Source: Pelosinus fermentans DSM 17108 (GTDB lineage: Bacteria > Bacillota > Negativicutes > DSM-13327). Taken from it: a DNA stretch of 64,000 bases. Location: assembly GCF_000271485.2 (NCBI RefSeq), contig NZ_AKVN02000001.1, positions 1,182,001 to 1,246,000 of the forward strand, in the 5' to 3' direction. The position numbers and the translations under genes were made by a program. Below, piece after piece: positions 5,248 to 63,069 of the stretch; the first letter of the stretch is position 1; each line of letters begins with the position of its first letter. The notes beneath the pieces were generated by a model. It saw only the letters and a program-made list of their open reading frames with translations, made no database searches and had not been told where the DNA came from.

Positions 5248-5874
5248 TTATTGCTTAGAAACACCATCAATTCTAGTGTGAACTACATCATCCTCAATCC
5301 AGCCTTCCACCGTATGACCGCCGATGATCTTTTTACTATAGTGTGTAGGATTGTGATCAATCACTGTATATTGCCGGCTGTTGCTGCTTCCGCTTGCAAT
5401 TGTTTCAAGATCTTTATTGATGGTATAGGAATTGGTGATAACTCCGTCAACTTTGGTACTGACAACGCTATCGTTAGCCCATGATTCCACGGTATGATTG
5501 CCCACAGCTTTTTTATTATAATGGGTAGGATTGTGGTCGATTACCGTATAGCTTCGGCTGTTTTTGCTTCCGCTTATGATTGTTTTAAGATCTTTATTGA
5601 TAGTATAAGATTTAGTGACACCGTCAATTCTGGTACTGACGATATCATTTTTAACCCAGCTCTCCATTGTACGACCGCCGACTATCTGTTTATTATAAAG
5701 AGTTGGATTATGATCAATTGTGGCATATTGCCGACTGTTCTCACTGCCGCTGATGATCGTTTCAATGCCCGGCTTAATTGGGTTTATTTCCGGAAGAATT
5801 TCATTAGCGGAAACCATATTCACCCCCATTGTATTTAGTAGCAATAAGGATGCAGTTATAAAAGTTTTTTTCAT
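5248..5874 (-). CDS. Secreted protein made of three ~60-residue tandem repeats
   Basis: 208 residues from the ATG at 5874, which follows GGAGGG; upstream in-frame codons have no ribosome site. After a Sec signal (MKKTFITASLLLLNTMG) and a short linker come three repeats of about 59, 60 and 52 residues. Each contains GS.NSR.Y, IDHNPT.Y, H/RT.E.W and DGV; the first two end in SYTINKDL. No family was recognised. Acidic/aromatic repeats in a small exported protein suggest a surface or periplasmic binding or structural role, but nothing catalytic is visible. Monocistronic, convergent with the NlpC/P60 gene. Its promoter carries four 11-bp-spaced half sites typical of an OmpR/PhoB-type regulator. 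Confidence 0.8.
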   Translation of the reverse strand: MKKTFITASLLLLNTMGVNMVSANEILPEINPIKPGIETIISGSENSRQYATIDHNPTLYNKQIVGGRTMESWVKNDIVSTRIDGVTKSYTINKDLKTIISGSKNSRSYTVIDHNPTHYNKKAVGNHTVESWANDSVVSTKVDGVITNSYTINKDLETIASGSSNSRQYTVIDHNPTHYSKKIIGGHTVEGWIEDDVVHTRIDGVSKQ

Positions 5875-5905
5875 TTTAATTTCCCTCCTAAATCGTATTA
5901 CCAAT

Positions 5906-5960
5906 ATAATACACAAGTTAAATGAATATCTAGTGAAGGATTTGTGAAGAACTTGTGTTA
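5906..5960 (-). promoter_or_regulatory. Promoter with four 11-bp-spaced half sites (OmpR/PhoB-type)
   Basis: Read on the minus strand, CTTCAC-like hexamers recur at exactly 11-bp steps. On the plus strand they are ATGAAT at 5922, GTGAAG at 5933, GTGAAG at 5944 and GTGTTA at 5955. The promoter-proximal half site ends 10 bp before a minus-strand TATTAT (5906-5911). This is the layout of OmpR/PhoB-family activated promoters lacking a good -35. It drives the three-repeat secreted protein. Confidence 0.55.
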
Positions 5961-6035
5961 TTCTTAAAAACCATAGAATCTTCATAAGAAATCCACAATC
6001 TTTGTTTATAATAAGGATGTAGGATATAAATAAAA

Positions 6036-6095
6036 GTAGTCTCTTGGAATGTTTCATTTGGGACGCAAAGGATAGATTTGTTTTTCCGAGAGTAC
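6036..6095. repeat. Short degenerate copy of the ~140-bp MITE-like element
   Basis: Starts GTAGTCTCT and shares TTTCATTTGGGACGCAAAGGAT with the full elements at 16758 and 38639 (with small differences), then ends GAGAGTAC. It lacks the central palindrome and looks internally deleted. It lies just upstream of the small secreted protein gene. Confidence 0.5.
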
Positions 6096-6114
6096 ACTTA
6101 ACAGGAGGTTGACA

Positions 6115-6393
6115 ATGAAAAAGAAAATGTTAATTATAACAGCACTAGCAGCATTGATTGCGGTGCCAGTTTTCGCGGCTGCCAATGATCAGGCTAAGGA
6201 GCAGTGCGGGCCGGCAAATGGCAATCATCAGCAGATGATACAGCAAGCTGTGACAGACGGTACTATTTCCAGCAACGAGGCTGCGACCTTAAATGAAAGC
6301 ATGGAAAAAGTGGCTCCTATTATGGAGAAAATCAGGAAAAATCGTGGAATGATGCAAAGCGCCGGCAATGACGCAGCGGAAAGCTGCAAATAG
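6115..6393 (+). CDS. Small secreted protein
   Basis: 92 residues from ATG 6115, 6 nt after AGGAGG (the TTG at 6109 abuts the ribosome site and is rejected). Signal peptide MKKKMLIITALAALIAVPVFA, then a mature part of ~70 residues with two Cys and a helical segment (IQQAVTDGTISSNEAATLNES) resembling the V.DGTIT.EQ segment of the secreted protein at 56862. This DGTI-acidic-EA pattern recalls the short helical repeats of DUF2680-like exported proteins, but the assignment is loose. Likely envelope-located; function unknown. Confidence 0.7.
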   Translation: MKKKMLIITALAALIAVPVFAAANDQAKEQCGPANGNHQQMIQQAVTDGTISSNEAATLNESMEKVAPIMEKIRKNRGMMQSAGNDAAESCK

Positions 6394-6402
6394 AGGAATA
6401 GA

Positions 6403-6446
6403 AAAATCCCTGCCAAATTCTAAGATGAATATGGCAGGGATTTTTC
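6403..6446. terminator. Intrinsic terminator
   Basis: AAATCCCTGCCA / TGGCAGGGATTT stem with a ~15-nt loop followed by TTCT. It lies between the convergent secreted-protein gene and rnk and can serve both. Confidence 0.85.
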
Positions 6447-6477
6447 TATTTCTATAACAAATAAGTCCTTATATCTG

Positions 6478-6891
6478 TTATAGTTCAAAATTACCGCTAG
6501 ACTCAGGTTGGAAAAGAATTTTATCCACTTTCAACCTTAAGATGCCGTTGGGAATTTTCCAATCCAGTGTATCCCCGACCCGGTATCCTAAGATCGCTGT
6601 CCCGATAGGTGCCAATACTGAAATTTTATCTTCGGCTATATTAGCTTCATCCGGGTACACCAAGGTATAGATCAATTCTTCATCATTATCCAAATCTTTT
6701 AATACTACCTGAGAATGCATTGTGATGACATCGGCAGGAATCTCTTCCGGCTGTGTGACAACTGCTCGTTCCAGCTCATAGGTCAGATCGTCCAGGTAGT
6801 CTTTATTACCTGGCTGAAATTCCTCTTCCAATACAATTAGCCTTTGCAGTTTCTTCTTGTCCAAATTAGTAATAAAAATTTCTTTTGAAAT
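6478..6891 (-). CDS. rnk: Nucleoside diphosphate kinase regulator (Rnk), apparent ATT start
   Basis: 137 residues if started at ATT 6891. The protein has the GreA/GreB C-terminal domain fold (PADVITMHSQVVLKDLD... SVLAPIGTAILGYRVGD...) behind a short coiled N-terminus, the layout of Rnk, which binds RNA polymerase or modulates Ndk. The first ATG-like codon, TTG at 6864, has no ribosome site and would cut off KEIFITNLD, a segment matching the N-terminal strand of known Rnk proteins (E. coli PTIIINDLD). An AAAGGAG lies 9 nt before the ATT, so initiation at AUU (as in infC) is the best reading. Family sure; start probable. Confidence 0.8.
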   Translation of the reverse strand: MSKEIFITNLDKKKLQRLIVLEEEFQPGNKDYLDDLTYELERAVVTQPEEIPADVITMHSQVVLKDLDNDEELIYTLVYPDEANIAEDKISVLAPIGTAILGYRVGDTLDWKIPNGILRLKVDKILFQPESSGNFEL

Positions 6892-56861: not shown

Positions 56862-57338
56862 TTAGGGAGTAGGCAGCTTAGGGCAGCATGGACCGCCCTC
56901 AGGACCTGGTCTATGAGGAGGACGCAGTGCATCGTCTACGGCTTTGGCTTGCTCATCAGATAAGCCTGCAGCGTCCTTTAATTCTTTGGTCATGTCTGGA
57001 GGTTGATTAAACTTTTCCTTGAAGAATGTATCTCTTTCCTCAGGAGTCATGGATCTCGTTTTTTCCATTTCTGATTTGCGCTGTGTATCTTTTTCTTTGA
57101 AAAATTTAATCAGATTATCTTCTTGCTCTTGCGTGATGGTACCGTCATTTACTAATTTATCCATAGAAATTTTCATATGTTTTTCTCTGTCTTCAGGATT
57201 AGGCATTCGGTGATTCATACCTGGTCCAGGCATGAATTCTTGTTGTCTATCATGAGCAAAGGCGACTGCTCCAACTGATAATGCAAGGCATCCCAGAATC
57301 AGTCCGCTAACCAATTTTTTTGTGAAATATTGCTTCAT
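56862..57338 (-). CDS. Small secreted Pro/Met-rich protein, likely two-component target
   Basis: 158 residues. Signal peptide (KLVSGLILGCLALSVGAVAFA), then a Met/Pro/His stretch, a helical charged region (DKLVNDGTITQEQEDNLIKFFKEKDTQRKSEMEK) and MTPEERDTFFKEKF, ending in a Pro-rich tail with a Cys-Cys pair. Helical, charged periplasmic proteins of this size recall Spy/CpxP-type chaperones, but no LTxxQ motif is seen, so this is only a resemblance. It lies just downstream of the sensor kinase gene on the same strand, with its own promoter sharing the GTAAC-N6-GTAAC block of the MacA-like operon. Confidence 0.72.
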   Translation of the reverse strand: MKQYFTKKLVSGLILGCLALSVGAVAFAHDRQQEFMPGPGMNHRMPNPEDREKHMKISMDKLVNDGTITQEQEDNLIKFFKEKDTQRKSEMEKTRSMTPEERDTFFKEKFNQPPDMTKELKDAAGLSDEQAKAVDDALRPPHRPGPEGGPCCPKLPTP

Positions 57339-57379
57339 TTGAATCTCTCCTTTATATAAGTGGCTTCCTTGAGATTAGT

Positions 57380-57408
57380 ATGAAGGAAAAATGTTACAAT
57401 TTAGTTAC
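57380..57408 (-). promoter_or_regulatory. Response-regulator box upstream of the small secreted protein
   Basis: On the minus strand GTAAC-N6-GTAAC (11-bp step, 57393-57408) runs into TTCCTTCATAC. The same arrangement precedes the MacA-like gene at 59721. Confidence 0.7.
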
Positions 57409-57411
57409 GGA

Positions 57412-58956
57412 CTAGTATAGATTTCCTATATTTTTTGCTTTGGTAAGATCAAACCAAAAAACAACACCATCTTCCACATTATTTACACCATAATGATTGC
57501 CGTGTAATTCCTGGATTGCGCGGACAATGGATAGGCCTAGACCATAACCGCCGTACTCTCTGGTTCGAGCTTTGTCTACTTTATAAAAGCTCGTCCATAT
57601 TTTTTCGAGGCTTTCTTCTGGAATGGGGCGTCCTGAATTATAAATAAAAACTCTGATGTGATTGTCTGCTTCTTTTACCCAGATTTTAATGGTCTTCTTA
57701 AATTCGGCATGATCAATGGCGTTAGTAAAGAGGTTGAGCAATACCTGCTCAATGCGGAGTTCATCCCCGTTTACTGCATAGGGATGGATGCTGTCCATTT
57801 CCAAAAGAATGTTTCTTTCTGCCAAAATGGTAGAGTATTTAAGGAGAATATCGTGCAGAAGCAGGGAAAGATCGAAGGTGGTTCTGCTTAATTGAAAGAA
57901 CCCGGATTCAATTTGGGATAGATTTAGCAGATCTTTTACTAATTTATCCATTTTTTCTGCTTCGTCAATGATGACAGAGCAGTAATAGTTTTTACTGTCC
58001 TCATCCCGTGCCACATCTTCTCTTAAGCCTTCTGCATATCCTAAAATGAGGGAAAGGGGAGTTTTTAGTTCATGGGAGACACTGGATACAAAGTTTTTAC
58101 GCATTGTATCCAGTTTTCTTTCCTTTTCTACATCTGCCATGAGCTGCTGATTTTTTTGGTTGAGCTCTGAGATGGCTGTATCCAATTGATAGGATAAGTG
58201 GTTAATGCTTTTACCTAGTTCGCCAATCTCATCGTTGTGGTTGATCGTACATTTCTGAGAAAAATCAAGCTGTGACATGCTTTGTGCAATGCGATTCAGT
58301 TCTATGATGGGCAGGGTAAATCGTTTCGCAAAGAAAAAGGCCCAAATACAGCCTGCTGCAACAGAGAGTATGCCCGTAAAAATAATAAATTGGGCTGCGA
58401 CACTCACGCTTTCAGATATTAATGCCAGGGGCTGCTTTATAACCAGAATGTCATCGTTTGTCATTTTATGGCGAATTACCATAAAATCAATCCTTAAATC
58501 TTGGTCATGCTCCATTTCCAAAATGGTGCGGTTATCAATGATTTCTCTGCTTTTGATGATAGGTGGAGGACCGGGAGGAAAGCGGGGAGGTGTGGTACGA
58601 GAAAGGGCAGGATTATTAAGAGCATTGGAGATAAAGGGAGGAGGAGGGGATGGGTTAGACAGATCTTGATCCACAAGGGGACCAAAGGAACTATATTTGA
58701 CCTGTCCTTCTTTGGTGAAAATAATAATGGCTGCCCCTAATGTATTGGTAATCCGCTCCAGCTCCAAAGACATTTCCTTTGGATTGCCCTGATATAAAAG
58801 GTCGAAGTTGGTACTGTTAATAATAAGAGCTTCTTTTTTTTGTGAAATATAAAATCTTTCTAAGCCAGCATGGGTAAGCCCTAAGAACATAAGTACAAAA
58901 AATAACACCAAGCCGCTTAAGATAATAAAGAGTTTTGCACGCAGTGAAACCGTCAT
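57412..58956 (-). CDS. Sensor histidine kinase
   Basis: 514 residues. Two membrane helices (~8-30, ~190-212) bracket a ~160-residue periplasmic sensor with an unusual Pro-rich segment (PSPPPPF, PPRFPPGPPP). Then HAMP, coiled coil, HisKA with the phosphorylated His295 (SSVSHELKTPLS) and HATPase (NLFTNAIDHA, GYGLGLSIVRAI). Overlaps the response-regulator gene by 4 bp. Probably senses envelope stress or a compound exported by the divergent MacAB-like system. Confidence 0.92.
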   Translation of the reverse strand: MTVSLRAKLFIILSGLVLFFVLMFLGLTHAGLERFYISQKKEALIINSTNFDLLYQGNPKEMSLELERITNTLGAAIIIFTKEGQVKYSSFGPLVDQDLSNPSPPPPFISNALNNPALSRTTPPRFPPGPPPIIKSREIIDNRTILEMEHDQDLRIDFMVIRHKMTNDDILVIKQPLALISESVSVAAQFIIFTGILSVAAGCIWAFFFAKRFTLPIIELNRIAQSMSQLDFSQKCTINHNDEIGELGKSINHLSYQLDTAISELNQKNQQLMADVEKERKLDTMRKNFVSSVSHELKTPLSLILGYAEGLREDVARDEDSKNYYCSVIIDEAEKMDKLVKDLLNLSQIESGFFQLSRTTFDLSLLLHDILLKYSTILAERNILLEMDSIHPYAVNGDELRIEQVLLNLFTNAIDHAEFKKTIKIWVKEADNHIRVFIYNSGRPIPEESLEKIWTSFYKVDKARTREYGGYGLGLSIVRAIQELHGNHYGVNNVEDGVVFWFDLTKAKNIGNLY

Positions 58957-59618
58957 TTTTCGGCCTCGAATCGATAACCATATCCTCTGATAGTTTGGAC
59001 AAGTGCGCTTTTATCTCCTAGCTTGGTTCTCAGCCGATTGATATGAGTATCTACAGTTCGCAGATCACCAAAGTAATCATAACTCCACACTTGATTTAAG
59101 ATTTGCTGTCGACTTAATGCCTTACCGCTATTCTCGGTCAAATAGGTAAGGAGTTCATATTCTTTAGGGCTTAAATCCAGGAATTGATCATTTATAGATA
59201 CTTGTCTTGCTGTTGTATTAATTTCTAAGCCATCATATACGATGGCTTTTTCTCTTTCTATGCGGCGAAATAATGCGTTTACACGAGCTGTTAACACTTT
59301 AGGGCTAAAGGGCTTAGTGACATATTCATCGGCACCGATTTCAAAAGCAAAAAGCTGGTCTACTTCTTCTCCTTTAGCTGTAAGCATAATGACAGGAATA
59401 TTGCTTTTCTTTCTAAGCTCTCTGCATACGGTCCAACCATCATGTTCTGGCATCATAACATCCAGAATGATCAGGTCCACCTGTTCTGCTGCCAGGAGCT
59501 CCAAGGCGACGCGTCCATTGTCAGCTTCTAGGGTGCTATAACCTTCCCGGACTAGAAAATCAGCAATCAGTTTCCTGATACGCAGTTCATCGTCAACAAT
59601 TAAGATTGTTTTATTCAT
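58953..59618 (-). CDS. OmpR-family response regulator
   Basis: 221 residues. Receiver domain with acidic pocket Asp9/Asp10 and phosphoacceptor Asp53 (LIILDVMMP), Lys in VTKPFSP, and C-terminal winged helix (SPKEYELLTYLTENSGKALSRQQILNQVW... TVDTHINRLRTKLG). ATG 59618 follows GGAGG. Divergent from the MacA-like gene. Likely binds the GTAAC-N6-GTAAC direct repeats at 59721 and 57393; 11-bp tandem repeats suit this family. Confidence 0.93.
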   Translation of the reverse strand: MNKTILIVDDELRIRKLIADFLVREGYSTLEADNGRVALELLAAEQVDLIILDVMMPEHDGWTVCRELRKKSNIPVIMLTAKGEEVDQLFAFEIGADEYVTKPFSPKVLTARVNALFRRIEREKAIVYDGLEINTTARQVSINDQFLDLSPKEYELLTYLTENSGKALSRQQILNQVWSYDYFGDLRTVDTHINRLRTKLGDKSALVQTIRGYGYRFEAEK

Positions 59619-59720
59619 GAGTGTTACCTCCTTATGACTCTACGGCATTCATAGTTTTATTTTTAGCATAAAGAGTATGACGGAAGATGTCAATGAATTG
59701 CTATATTTGTATAAATTTCT

Positions 59721-59752
59721 GTAACAAAACTGTAACAAAATTCCTTCATAAT
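59721..59752 (+). promoter_or_regulatory. Response-regulator box and promoter of the MacAB-like operon
   Basis: GTAAC at 59721 and 59732 (11-bp step; extended repeat TGTAACAAAA twice), then TTCCTTCATAAT with -10-like CATAAT at 59747-59752. Sequence and spacing match the box before the secreted protein gene at 57338. Confidence 0.75.
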
Positions 59753-59788
59753 TAAAAGAAGACTCATTTTAGCAAGTAGAAGAAGATA

Positions 59789-60892
59789 ATGAAACTAAGA
59801 AAGTGGTGGTACGTTATGATTTGGAATAGAATAAATCACTATAAAAAATGGGTCATACTCCTGATTGTTGCAGCAGCCTTGGGCGGAGGAGGAGCCTATT
59901 ACCTTAAGAAAAACAGCACTCCTGTAGTTGCAGGGACAACAGCTGTCATTGGCAGAGGTGACGTTATTGAAGCAATCTCCGCGACCGGCACTATTTCTGC
60001 AGTCAATTCGGTTGATATTAGTTCGCGAGTGACAGGGCTCATTAGCGAGTTGCGGGTACAAGAAAATGATATGGTAAAAAAAGGACAGGTGTTGGTTGTG
60101 CTGGATGATACAACGATTAAAGCACAAATTGCCCAATATCAGGCTCAGATGGAAAATTATGCGGTCATTTATGAACGCAGTCAAAAATTAGCTGCTATTG
60201 GTGCTGAACCGCAGCAGCAGCTAGATACAGACCGGACTAATTATCTTGTAGCCCAATCGACTTACAACAGTAATGCATCCCAGGTGGGATATTATGTAAT
60301 AACAGCACCGATTGATGGCATGGTAATTGGTACACCAACTCCTGCAGGGCAGACCGTGGCCCAAGGGATTTCCACTCCTCAAGTTATCATGACTATCGCC
60401 GATATGTCGAAAATGCAAATCAAAGTTTTGGTAGATGAATCAGATATTGGCAGAGTGAAGATGGGGCAAGAGGTTACTTTCACTGTAGATTCTTATACAA
60501 CCCAGACTTTTGCCGGAAAAGTGACACGGATTTCCCGAAGTGCGACCACTTCCTCTAATGTTGTATATTATCCCGTATATGTAGATGTGGATTCAACTGA
60601 GAGCCTCCTATATCCTACGATGACTGCTAGAGTAACGATCAAAGCCAGCGAAAGCAAAAATGTATTGGTTGCCCCCTTGGCAGCTGTTAAGGAAGATAAG
60701 GGACAAAAATATGTACAATTGATGGTAAATGGTAAAGAACAGAATGTGCCAGTCAGTATCGGACTAAGTGATGATGAAAAAGTGGAAATACGCAGTGGTT
60801 TAAATGAGGGGGATACGATCCTAGTGCCAGCAACGAAGGCGCGTACAGCTGCAACAACCACGCAAAATCAGGGGCCGCCGCCTCCCATGTAA
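59789..60892 (+). CDS. macA: Efflux periplasmic adaptor, MacA-like (HlyD family)
   Basis: 367 residues (340 or so if begun at ATG 59816, also plausible). N-terminal membrane anchor (WVILLIVAAALGGGGAYYL), split lipoyl domain (ISATGTISAVNSVDISSRVTGLISELRVQENDMVKKGQ ... YYVITAPIDGMVIGTP), short alpha-hairpin, beta-barrel (VDESDIGRVKMGQEVTFTV) and membrane-proximal domain; Gln/Pro-rich tail. Pairs with the following ABC ATPase and permease to move substrates out, probably via an outer-membrane channel encoded elsewhere. Confidence 0.88.
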   Translation: MKLRKWWYVMIWNRINHYKKWVILLIVAAALGGGGAYYLKKNSTPVVAGTTAVIGRGDVIEAISATGTISAVNSVDISSRVTGLISELRVQENDMVKKGQVLVVLDDTTIKAQIAQYQAQMENYAVIYERSQKLAAIGAEPQQQLDTDRTNYLVAQSTYNSNASQVGYYVITAPIDGMVIGTPTPAGQTVAQGISTPQVIMTIADMSKMQIKVLVDESDIGRVKMGQEVTFTVDSYTTQTFAGKVTRISRSATTSSNVVYYPVYVDVDSTESLLYPTMTARVTIKASESKNVLVAPLAAVKEDKGQKYVQLMVNGKEQNVPVSIGLSDDEKVEIRSGLNEGDTILVPATKARTAATTTQNQGPPPPM

Positions 60893-60992
60893 GGAAGTCA
60901 AGGTGCTAGGCAACGTTTAACTCCATCTACAATACCTGGAAGATGGTAGTCTTAAAACGACTGATTCATTGGGTTAGAGTGAGGAGAAAATC

Positions 60993-61703
60993 ATGACAAT
61001 TACTTTAAGAAACGTAACAAAAGAATATCACATGGGTGACATTATTGTGCGTGCGTTGGCAGGGGTGAATTTGGAGATTACAGCTGGTGAATTAACTGCT
61101 ATTATGGGGCCTTCGGGATCAGGGAAATCCACATTGATGAACATACTAGGATGTCTTGATATTCCCACCAGCGGATCGTATACCATAGATGGACAGGAAG
61201 TTGGAACATTAAATGATGATGAACTGGCAATTACACGCAATAAAAAGATTGGTTTTGTATTTCAAAATTTTAATCTGCTGCCTCGTATGTCTGCCTTACA
61301 AAATGTGGCTTTACCCATGGTATATGCGGGTGTAAACAAGAAAGACCGCATGGAAACTGCCGCCCGGGCTTTGTCTATGGTTGGTTTAGAGGATCGGCGG
61401 GATCATCGTCCCAATGAATTGTCAGGAGGGCAGCGGCAGCGTGTAGCCATTGCCCGGTCACTGGTGAATAATCCGGCAATTATTATGGCGGATGAGCCTA
61501 CAGGTAATCTGGACACGAAGTCCGGCAATGAGATTATGGAAATCTTCTGTAACCTAAATAATCAAGGGAGAACCATCATCTTGGTTACTCATGAACCTGA
61601 AATTGCAGATTTCACCAGAAGGATACTCCATGTTCGTGATGGTGAAATTGTTCGTGATGAAACACGAGGGGAGGCAAAACAATGTTCTGGGAAAGTGTTT
61701 TAA
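60993..61703 (+). CDS. ABC exporter ATPase, MacB/LolD type
   Basis: 236 residues. Walker [10 protein letters not shown] (39-47), Q-loop [18 protein letters not shown], signature [16 protein letters not shown], Walker [13 protein letters not shown], switch His in LVTHEPEIA. The MacB-like system is split here into separate ATPase and permease genes, the usual arrangement in Firmicutes. Overlaps the permease gene by 22 bp. Confidence 0.92.
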
Positions 61704-62899
61704 TTGCTTTTGAGGGACTAAAAGCCAATAAGCTTCGTGCAATCCTTACGATGCTGGGGATCATCATTGGTGTAGGCGCCGTTGTTGCTATGATATCCCT
61801 CGGATTAGGAGTGCAGCAAAAAGTCCAAAACTCCATTGCAGGTTTAGGCAGCAATCTTCTGATCGTTATGCCGGGAGCTAATTCACCTTCAGGAGGTGTG
61901 CGTCTGGCAGCGGGATCGAACATTACGTTAACTAAGCAAGATGCGAAAGCCATTGGTCAGCAAATTAGCGGGATCAATGCAGTAGCACCTGCTGTCAGCC
62001 AGCAGTTTCAAATTATTTATGGGAATCAAAACTGGAATACCAGTGTTCAAGGGACTACCCCCGAATTTTTGGAAATACGCAATTTTGAAGTTGCTTCGGG
62101 AACTTTTTTTAGTACAAGTGACGAAGATACTCGGGCGCGAGTTGCTGTAATTGGTGAAACGGTAGCTGCTAATTTGTTCGGGGAAATTAGTCCGGTAGGA
62201 CAGACTATGCGAATTGGTCAGGCTCCCTTTCGTGTAATCGGAGTTCTGGGCAGTAAAGGGCAGTCATCCATGGGGTCTGACCAGGACGATGTGATTATTG
62301 TACCTTTAACTACCGCACAAGAACGTCTTATGGGCATATCCTATGTACATAACATTAGTATTCAGGTAGAAAGTGATGACATCATGGATAAAGTCCAGGA
62401 GGATGTTACGACCCTATTGCGGTCACGCCATCACTTGGCACAAAATACGACGGATGATTTTACCGTTCGTAATTTAACAGCACTTATGACCACGATGAAA
62501 GAGACTACAGCAACTCTTACCTTATTTCTCGGAAGTGTTGCTGCGATTTCATTGCTGGTAGGCGGCATTGGTATTATGAATATCATGCTGGTATCTGTAA
62601 CGGAACGGACTCGAGAAATCGGCATACGTAAAGCATTAGGTGCAACCTATAACAATATTTTGCTGCAGTTTATTATAGAAGCCGTTGTGATTGGTGTTAC
62701 AGGCGGAATATTGGGAATTCTTCTTGGCATAGCAGGGGCTCGGATAGTTTCTATGGTAGCAGGCTGGAGTACGGTGATTTCCATTGCTGCCATCATTGGG
62801 GCATTTAGTGTTTCTGTAATGATTGGTTTATTCTTTGGCATCTATCCTGCCCGCAAAGCAGCATTACTTGACCCCATAGATGCTTTGCGCTATGAGTAA
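61682..62899 (+). CDS. ABC exporter permease, MacB type
   Basis: 405 residues. N-terminal helix after the FEGLKANKLRAILTMLGIIIGVGAV motif, a ~230-residue extracytoplasmic MacB periplasmic core domain, then three helices (FtsX-like) with MLVSVTERTREIGIRKALGATYNNILLQFIIEA and a final YPARKAALLDPIDALRYE. Exports peptides, antibiotics or envelope components in related systems; substrate unknown here. Confidence 0.92.
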   Translation: MFWESVLIAFEGLKANKLRAILTMLGIIIGVGAVVAMISLGLGVQQKVQNSIAGLGSNLLIVMPGANSPSGGVRLAAGSNITLTKQDAKAIGQQISGINAVAPAVSQQFQIIYGNQNWNTSVQGTTPEFLEIRNFEVASGTFFSTSDEDTRARVAVIGETVAANLFGEISPVGQTMRIGQAPFRVIGVLGSKGQSSMGSDQDDVIIVPLTTAQERLMGISYVHNISIQVESDDIMDKVQEDVTTLLRSRHHLAQNTTDDFTVRNLTALMTTMKETTATLTLFLGSVAAISLLVGGIGIMNIMLVSVTERTREIGIRKALGATYNNILLQFIIEAVVIGVTGGILGILLGIAGARIVSMVAGWSTVISIAAIIGAFSVSVMIGLFFGIYPARKAALLDPIDALRYE

Positions 62900-62958
62900 G
62901 AAACAGGCAATAGAAAATGATCATAAAGACTTTTAAAGGAAGTAAGGAGAATGTTGTT

Positions 62959-63069
62959 ATGCATATTTGGACAGGAAATCTATGGCTATATTCATTGATG
63001 ATTCTTGTATCCCTGCTGGGATATTATGTTTTTCGCATTTCCCGATATATTGTACAAATTCTACTTTAA
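62959..63069 (+). CDS. Tiny membrane protein (36 residues), hypothetical
   Basis: ATG 62959 lies about 10 nt after AAGGAG and opens a 36-residue frame dominated by one hydrophobic helix (LYSLMILVSLLGYYVF) ending RISRYIVQILL. It lies 59 bp after the MacB-like permease and before a terminator, so it would be cotranscribed and may be an accessory to the exporter. The ATG at 62951 gives only a 15-residue frame. Confidence 0.55.
   Translation: MHIWTGNLWLYSLMILVSLLGYYVFRISRYIVQILL

Follow-up and report, generated by a model that had tools for sequence, protein, structure and literature searches.

A tandem TGTAAC block as the probable operator-promoter of an envelope-maintenance two-component regulon in Pelosinus fermentans and other Negativicutes

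Little work appears to have addressed how the Negativicutes, Firmicutes that have an outer membrane, unusual for the phylum, detect damage to this membrane and mend it. A locus of Pelosinus fermentans DSM 17108 raises the question. Within the window, the whole 64,000-nucleotide stretch analysed here (contig NZ_AKVN02000001.1, positions 1,182,001 to 1,246,000), the gene of a secreted DUF2680-like protein, a sensor kinase gene and an OmpR/PhoB-type regulator gene follow one another on the minus strand, and then come the divergent genes of an exporter, macA, macB ATPase and macB permease (59789-62899). Why do the promoters of macA and of the secreted-protein gene share one block of sequence, with the regulator gene between them? 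From sequence comparison, we consider it highly likely that a two-component regulon has this block as its operator-promoter, read by the adjacent regulator acting as an activator; it would very probably be the switch by which the sensor-regulator pair runs an envelope-maintenance programme.

A sequence-only reading of the window had described two GTAAC sites at an exact 11-bp step in both promoters and the OmpR-family regulator gene lying between them, and both descriptions hold at exact coordinates (Table 1), with the kinase gene also in between. The full block, GTAAC-N6-GTAAC-N4-TTCCTTCATA, is exact at both promoters, each with a step of 11 bp. The stretch that was said to be near-identical and to merge into the -10 does overlap the -10-like CATAAT of macA and CATACT of the secreted-protein gene, and its decamer is in fact identical. 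With the two promoters lined up at the block, they share 26 of its 32 bases, compared with chance-level identity upstream (20/60) and downstream (25/78); the second-best 32-base match to the macA block within the window reached 21/32. The bare repeat GTAAC-N6-GTAAC was rejected as evidence because it occurs at chance frequency both in the window (two matches with at most one mismatch versus 1.8 expected) and genome-wide (seven exact matches versus 19 for the reversed control). The full block with no mismatch was found at two places in the 5.03-Mb genome, both in this window, and is not a motif common at unrelated genes; with up to three mismatches it was found at four genome places versus two for the reversed control, in scans that scored only the best first-look candidates. 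At each promoter the -10 follows the second half-site after a gap of 10 bp and the box occupies the -35 position, where no -35 hexamer was found at the expected place in the sequence of either promoter; a sigma-70 scan missed the macA promoter. PhoB-activated promoters have the same geometry, i.e., box, 10 bp, then -10.

From named genomes we then took 16 loci encoding MacA relatives, which include 14 close orthologues, and built a weight matrix from 14 exact sites, with L019 and L020 outside the training set. By this matrix, other Sporomusaceae have the block upstream of macA or tolC-macA-macB and a second time behind the kinase, ahead of the secreted-protein gene. All 10 macA orthologue loci with an adjoining regulator-kinase pair carried it (weakly in L020, 12.7), compared with none of the four loci lacking the pair above chance (L014, L015, L022, and L024). 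The sites preserve the 11-bp step and the -10 and differ in spacer bases. Where a Negativicutes genome has a closely related regulator/kinase pair, the block in most cases precedes (tolC-)macAB, the DUF2680-like gene, or both, in many families. Among 43 regulator loci (946 kb, both strands), 45 of the 46 matrix matches above 10 sat in stretches beside the regulator and kinase, and the sole exception was the macA promoter of L175, where the regulator open reading frame (ORF) had been mis-called; some of these loci had trained the matrix, and the held-out ones (L148-L150, L152-L156, L159, L161, L170, L174, and L175) scored 23-55. A profile made from sequence only (R1) was used to scan 200 Negativicutes genomes, to which order- and family-level searches contributed just two extra genomes. 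At a threshold of E up to 2e-4 it matched 32 of the 200, and the regulator was present in 29 of these 32 versus 45 of 200 overall (Fisher P 3e-20, which overstates the independent evidence, the genomes being related by descent). Altogether, the claim of one two-component regulon marked by the block is well supported by conservation across genera, co-occurrence with the regulator, absence without it, and the sites at envelope genes described below.

Table 1. Features of the locus and further genes behind copies of the block. Positions are those of the window unless a locus is named.
Feature	Position	Strand	Remarks
macA-operon regulator box TGTAAC-N5-TGTAAC, two half-sites, 11-bp step	59720-59736	+	Own-genome profile 43.2 bits, E 1.4e-10; conserved in orthologous promoters
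GTAAC half-sites, macA promoter	59721-59725, 59732-59736	+	
TTCCTTCATA decamer, macA promoter	59741-59750	+	N4 after second GTAAC
TTCCTTCATAAT, spacer plus -10 (CATAAT 59747-59752)	59741-59752	+	-10 positions conserved in 14 sites
Secreted-protein gene box GTAAC-N6-GTAAC, just past kinase stop codon	57393-57408	-	Own-genome profile 38.1 bits, E 5.9e-9; same place in relatives
GTAAC half-sites, secreted-protein promoter	57408-57404, 57397-57393	-	
TTCCTTCATA decamer, secreted-protein promoter	57388-57379	-	N4 after second GTAAC
TTCCTTCATACT, spacer plus -10 (CATACT), secreted-protein promoter	57377-57388	-	
Exported 158-residue all-helical DUF2680-like protein, target gene	56862-57338	-	"Spy-like" by position and composition only
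Sensor histidine kinase (HAMP, HisKA, HATPase_c)	57412-58956	-	Predicted sensor region ~residues 34-181, beta strands
OmpR/PhoB-type response regulator, proposed box binder	58953-59618	-	Response_reg 2e-31, Trans_reg_C 5e-27
Sigma-70-type promoter of regulator-kinase genes, TTGACA-17-TATGCT, divergent from macA promoter	59665-59693	-	10/12 consensus bases
MacA-type periplasmic adaptor, first gene of target operon	59789-60892	+	
MacB-type ATPase subunit	60993-61703	+	
MacB-type permease (MacB_PCD + FtsX)	61682-62899	+	
Omp85/POTRA gene			Own-genome profile 29.1 bits
32-codon ORF and block	L058:3600-4183 (G000:C1, ~2966800-2967190)		Own-genome profile 26.2 bits; also L061, L062, L063
OmpH/Skp-like gene			Own-genome profile 21.2 bits
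109-residue charged exported protein			Own-genome profile 15.7 bits (weak); family behind site in L137, L140, L141
Omp85 gene in another genus	L132		Recurrent target
TolC gene in another genus	L138		Recurrent target
200-residue exported protein	L133		Stands ahead of Omp85 in two Pelosinus relatives
DUF2680-like gene with site	L134		Far from regulator
Other proteins with signal-peptide-like N-termini	L130, L131, L142-L144		

The regulon proves larger, and tells more, than had been supposed. Beyond the two promoters of the window, profile matches in the same genome lie at four further genes (Table 1), and all remaining ones score at most 14.4 bits. The sequence-only reading had also drawn a tiny membrane ORF of 50 residues (62917-63069) into the regulon, for which no counterpart was seen after macB in the relatives inspected, and that member has to be dropped; the idea of a tiny membrane protein survives in a different ORF elsewhere in the genome. 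This ORF is unannotated, has a ribosome site, would encode a 32-residue single-span membrane peptide (MITHLADFGIGLIVGMFICLLVISLMIKYKEK), and lies ~170 nt behind a copy of the block (110-185 nt in relatives). It is kept in four genomes despite a differing upstream gene, and between G000 and G003 it shows five synonymous codon changes and one conservative non-synonymous change.

Some relatives have lost or exchanged parts of the system. In G002 (L192, G002:C27), a clean 6.1-kb deletion corresponding to 56946-63026 of the window, between flanks ~94-98% identical, removes the regulator, the kinase, macAB, and all but the last 30 codons of the secreted-protein gene; ~6 nt are shared at the junction. 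An assembly gap was rejected as the cause of loss at this locus, as a single contig carries the two flanks without a break, though the genome as a whole is only 83% complete. G002 also lacks the Omp85 gene directly behind its site, and that site is changed at conserved positions. In G001 and G003 (L072 and L147), a different TolC-MacA-MacB set stands behind the same block and the regulator is retained, the MacA of G003 being ~40% identical to that of the window; control has therefore outlived the exporter. Separately, the regulator gene of G001 (L072:4567-7221) is split by an insert that contains an ORF (5276-6520, plus strand) for a reverse transcriptase of the group II intron type, with both blocks and the kinase intact.

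Besides the shared descent that inflates the P value above, several observations weigh against control of these genes by the adjacent regulator. G002 keeps sites before the 32-residue ORF and the OmpH gene though its regulator is gone; these may be relics or may be read by a second regulator. Related f4 regulators have the same recognition helix as the block users, but the genes that encode them have no block alongside. Family f10 (L165-L168) and part of genus g29 (L162 and L163) have a weak macA-side site, and L158 and L160 have none, with regulators in all of these still 74-76% identical. The envelope-stress signal is one that we infer solely from the list of targets.

Which regulator, then, reads the box? 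We assigned it to the adjacent one because of the cut-off results for the WalR and CpxR models, the recognition helix G[DE]LRTVDTHI[NT]R[LV]R, which is almost invariant among block users, and the regulator tree, in which block use is clustered and weakens in a few lineages (f10 and part of g29). It is improbable that another OmpR-family regulator, a WalR/YycF or PhoB orthologue, is the reader and the adjacent regulator a bystander, even though TGTAAC-N5-TGTAAC matches the published WalR consensus TGTWAH-N5-TGTWAH and closely resembles the PhoB box (PMC4168254), and some remote sites survive in G002 without a copy of the adjacent regulator. The block tracks that regulator across loci and genomes, and the clear sites include none at pst/pho genes. 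Within the genus, no gene exceeds the WalR cut-off; the best scorer (266.6 of 340 bits) is 46% identical to the window regulator, differs in its recognition helix, and, because it stands beside pstB/phoU, is most likely the phosphate regulator. With no gene over the WalR cut-off and a separate phosphate-type regulator, WalR and PhoB were judged unlikely readers of the box.

In a sister two-component system, whose regulator is ~60% identical, TGTGAC/TGTAAC repeats stand in tandem at an 11-bp step (L184:4503-4525, L185:5232-5236, and L187:4499-4514), with the regulator gene on one side and, on the other, a divergent gene that is conserved (~400 residues, membrane acyltransferase-like by eye). 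Their sequence suggests a diverged operator of the same type.

The direction of control is a further question. That the adjacent regulator represses its targets until the kinase signal lifts repression seems to us more improbable still: the promoters have no -35 hexamer, and the constant 10-bp gap that most sites keep between box and -10 is the geometry of PhoB activation, needless for a repressor, whatever may be said for the half-sites covering the -35 region, where RNA polymerase could be shut out by a bound protein, and for WalR/VicR working both ways (PMC4168254). That the promoters resemble each other by chance or by inheritance, with no meaning for regulation, is a reading to which the unremarkable frequency of the bare repeat lends its one argument. 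It has practically no probability left and is already contradicted, because the block is conserved at non-homologous genes in many families, with the full block unique in the genome and the flanks of the two promoters unrelated. Of the common activator that the sequence-only reading had proposed, one shared regulon is supported; binding by the adjacent regulator, and activation rather than repression, are what we infer.

In the mechanism that we favor, the sensor kinase would detect an envelope disturbance and phosphorylate the adjacently encoded OmpR/PhoB-type regulator, a dimer of which would bind TGTAAC-N5-TGTAAC head to tail. With its downstream half-site ending 10 bp before the -10, the bound dimer would stand in for the missing -35 and recruit RNA polymerase, an arrangement of the PhoB-type class II. 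The genes predicted to be switched on are those of the MacAB exporter (often with TolC), of the helical periplasmic protein related to DUF2680, of an Omp85 protein for outer-membrane assembly/secretion, of a periplasmic chaperone resembling OmpH/Skp, and of further small exported proteins, together with the gene of the 32-residue single-span membrane peptide.

A receiver plus winged-helix (Trans_reg_C) regulator adjoined by a HisKA/HATPase kinase makes an OmpR/PhoB-family two-component system, and the kinase, in a full-length model of moderate confidence, has a predicted sensor region with beta strands and a core like that of WalK/HK853. A sequence resembling the sigma-70-type promoter of the regulator-kinase genes is also present in L012. 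The RND/HlyD-type adaptor, MacB ATPase, and MacB_PCD/FtsX permease make a MacAB-type ABC exporter, in which ATPase and permease are encoded separately, whereas they are fused in E. coli MacB; in several relatives a TolC gene lies inside the operon.

For the secreted protein, DUF2680 fits better (10 of 17 relatives match, best 5e-14) than the Spy model, which gave a weak match (E 0.0017, 18.6 of 174 bits). Its predicted structure is all-helical, with a folded core at a predicted local distance difference test (pLDDT) score of ~90 and without a clear solved counterpart. Spy was not among the PDB matches listed in the fold search, though the two may yet be related, and a profile search of PDB sequences returned helical bundles only (e.g., protein A), which we took as chance. 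Identity with Spy or CpxP is unsupported by Pfam, NCBIfam, the PDB-sequence profile search, and the fold search, and "Spy-like" is an analogy only. Relatives of the protein carry one to three copies of a repeat unit, "GTITQEQ...PEER...LSDEQAKAVADALRPP". Depending on the genus, the DUF2680-like exported protein has one, two, or three tandem helical units (L151:2699-3724, L152-L156, and L172).

We found no published envelope-stress two-component system in Negativicutes in the open-access literature searched; a prior description may exist, subscription journals lying mostly outside the search. A defined operator and a named regulator, together with targets few enough to follow (export pump, Omp85, OmpH, periplasmic helical protein, and tiny membrane peptide), make the question of how these bacteria maintain their outer membrane directly testable. 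A bolder proposal, which we regard as evenly balanced between true and false, is that this is a main outer-membrane and periplasm maintenance response of diderm Firmicutes, a system of the WalR/PhoB lineage that would have arisen independently of Cpx and sigma-E with the same kind of targets (Omp85, OmpH/Skp, MacAB-TolC, and a periplasmic helical protein), the helical protein or the 32-residue peptide serving as a feedback arm.

Three known systems invite comparison. With PhoB/PhoR the locus shares its promoter geometry, and PhoB is the best NCBIfam model for the regulator, yet at 222.3 of 296.2 bits it stays under the cut-off, a separate PhoB-type gene lies beside pstB/phoU, and no block is found at phosphate genes among the clear sites. 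With WalRK, the macA site TGTAAC-AAAAC-TGTAAC fits the WalR consensus fully, the secreted-protein site having CGTAAC as its first half; the kinase core is nearest to WalK among NCBIfam models, and WalK is among the top Foldseek matches. However, regulator (204.7 of 340 bits for WalR) and kinase (226 of 725 for WalK) are both under the cut-offs, the targets here are outer-membrane and export genes, unlike those of WalRK in monoderm Firmicutes, and the whole locus is dispensable, as its deletion in G002 attests.

The nearest working analogue is Cpx, in which a periplasmic protein and efflux are under one box, although the system described here is not a member. The window pair scored 145.9 of 341 bits with the CpxR model and 116 of 486 with the CpxA model, far under the cut-offs, and no gene in the genome exceeded the CpxR cut-off, in contrast to one control genome. 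Pseudomonas aeruginosa has CpxR boxes GTAAA-N6-GTAAA, with an 11-bp step, before cpxP (GTAAAGCTTGGGTAAA) and muxABC (PMC12802237). Half-sites here are GTAAC rather than GTAAA, the periplasmic protein is DUF2680-like, the targets include Omp85 and an ABC exporter, and the host belongs to the Negativicutes, not the Proteobacteria. In both systems, a direct-repeat box stands before the gene of a small periplasmic protein beside the regulatory genes and again before tripartite efflux genes (PMC12802237). If our reading is true, a regulator of Gram-positive lineage would have been adapted to outer-membrane upkeep in parallel to Cpx.
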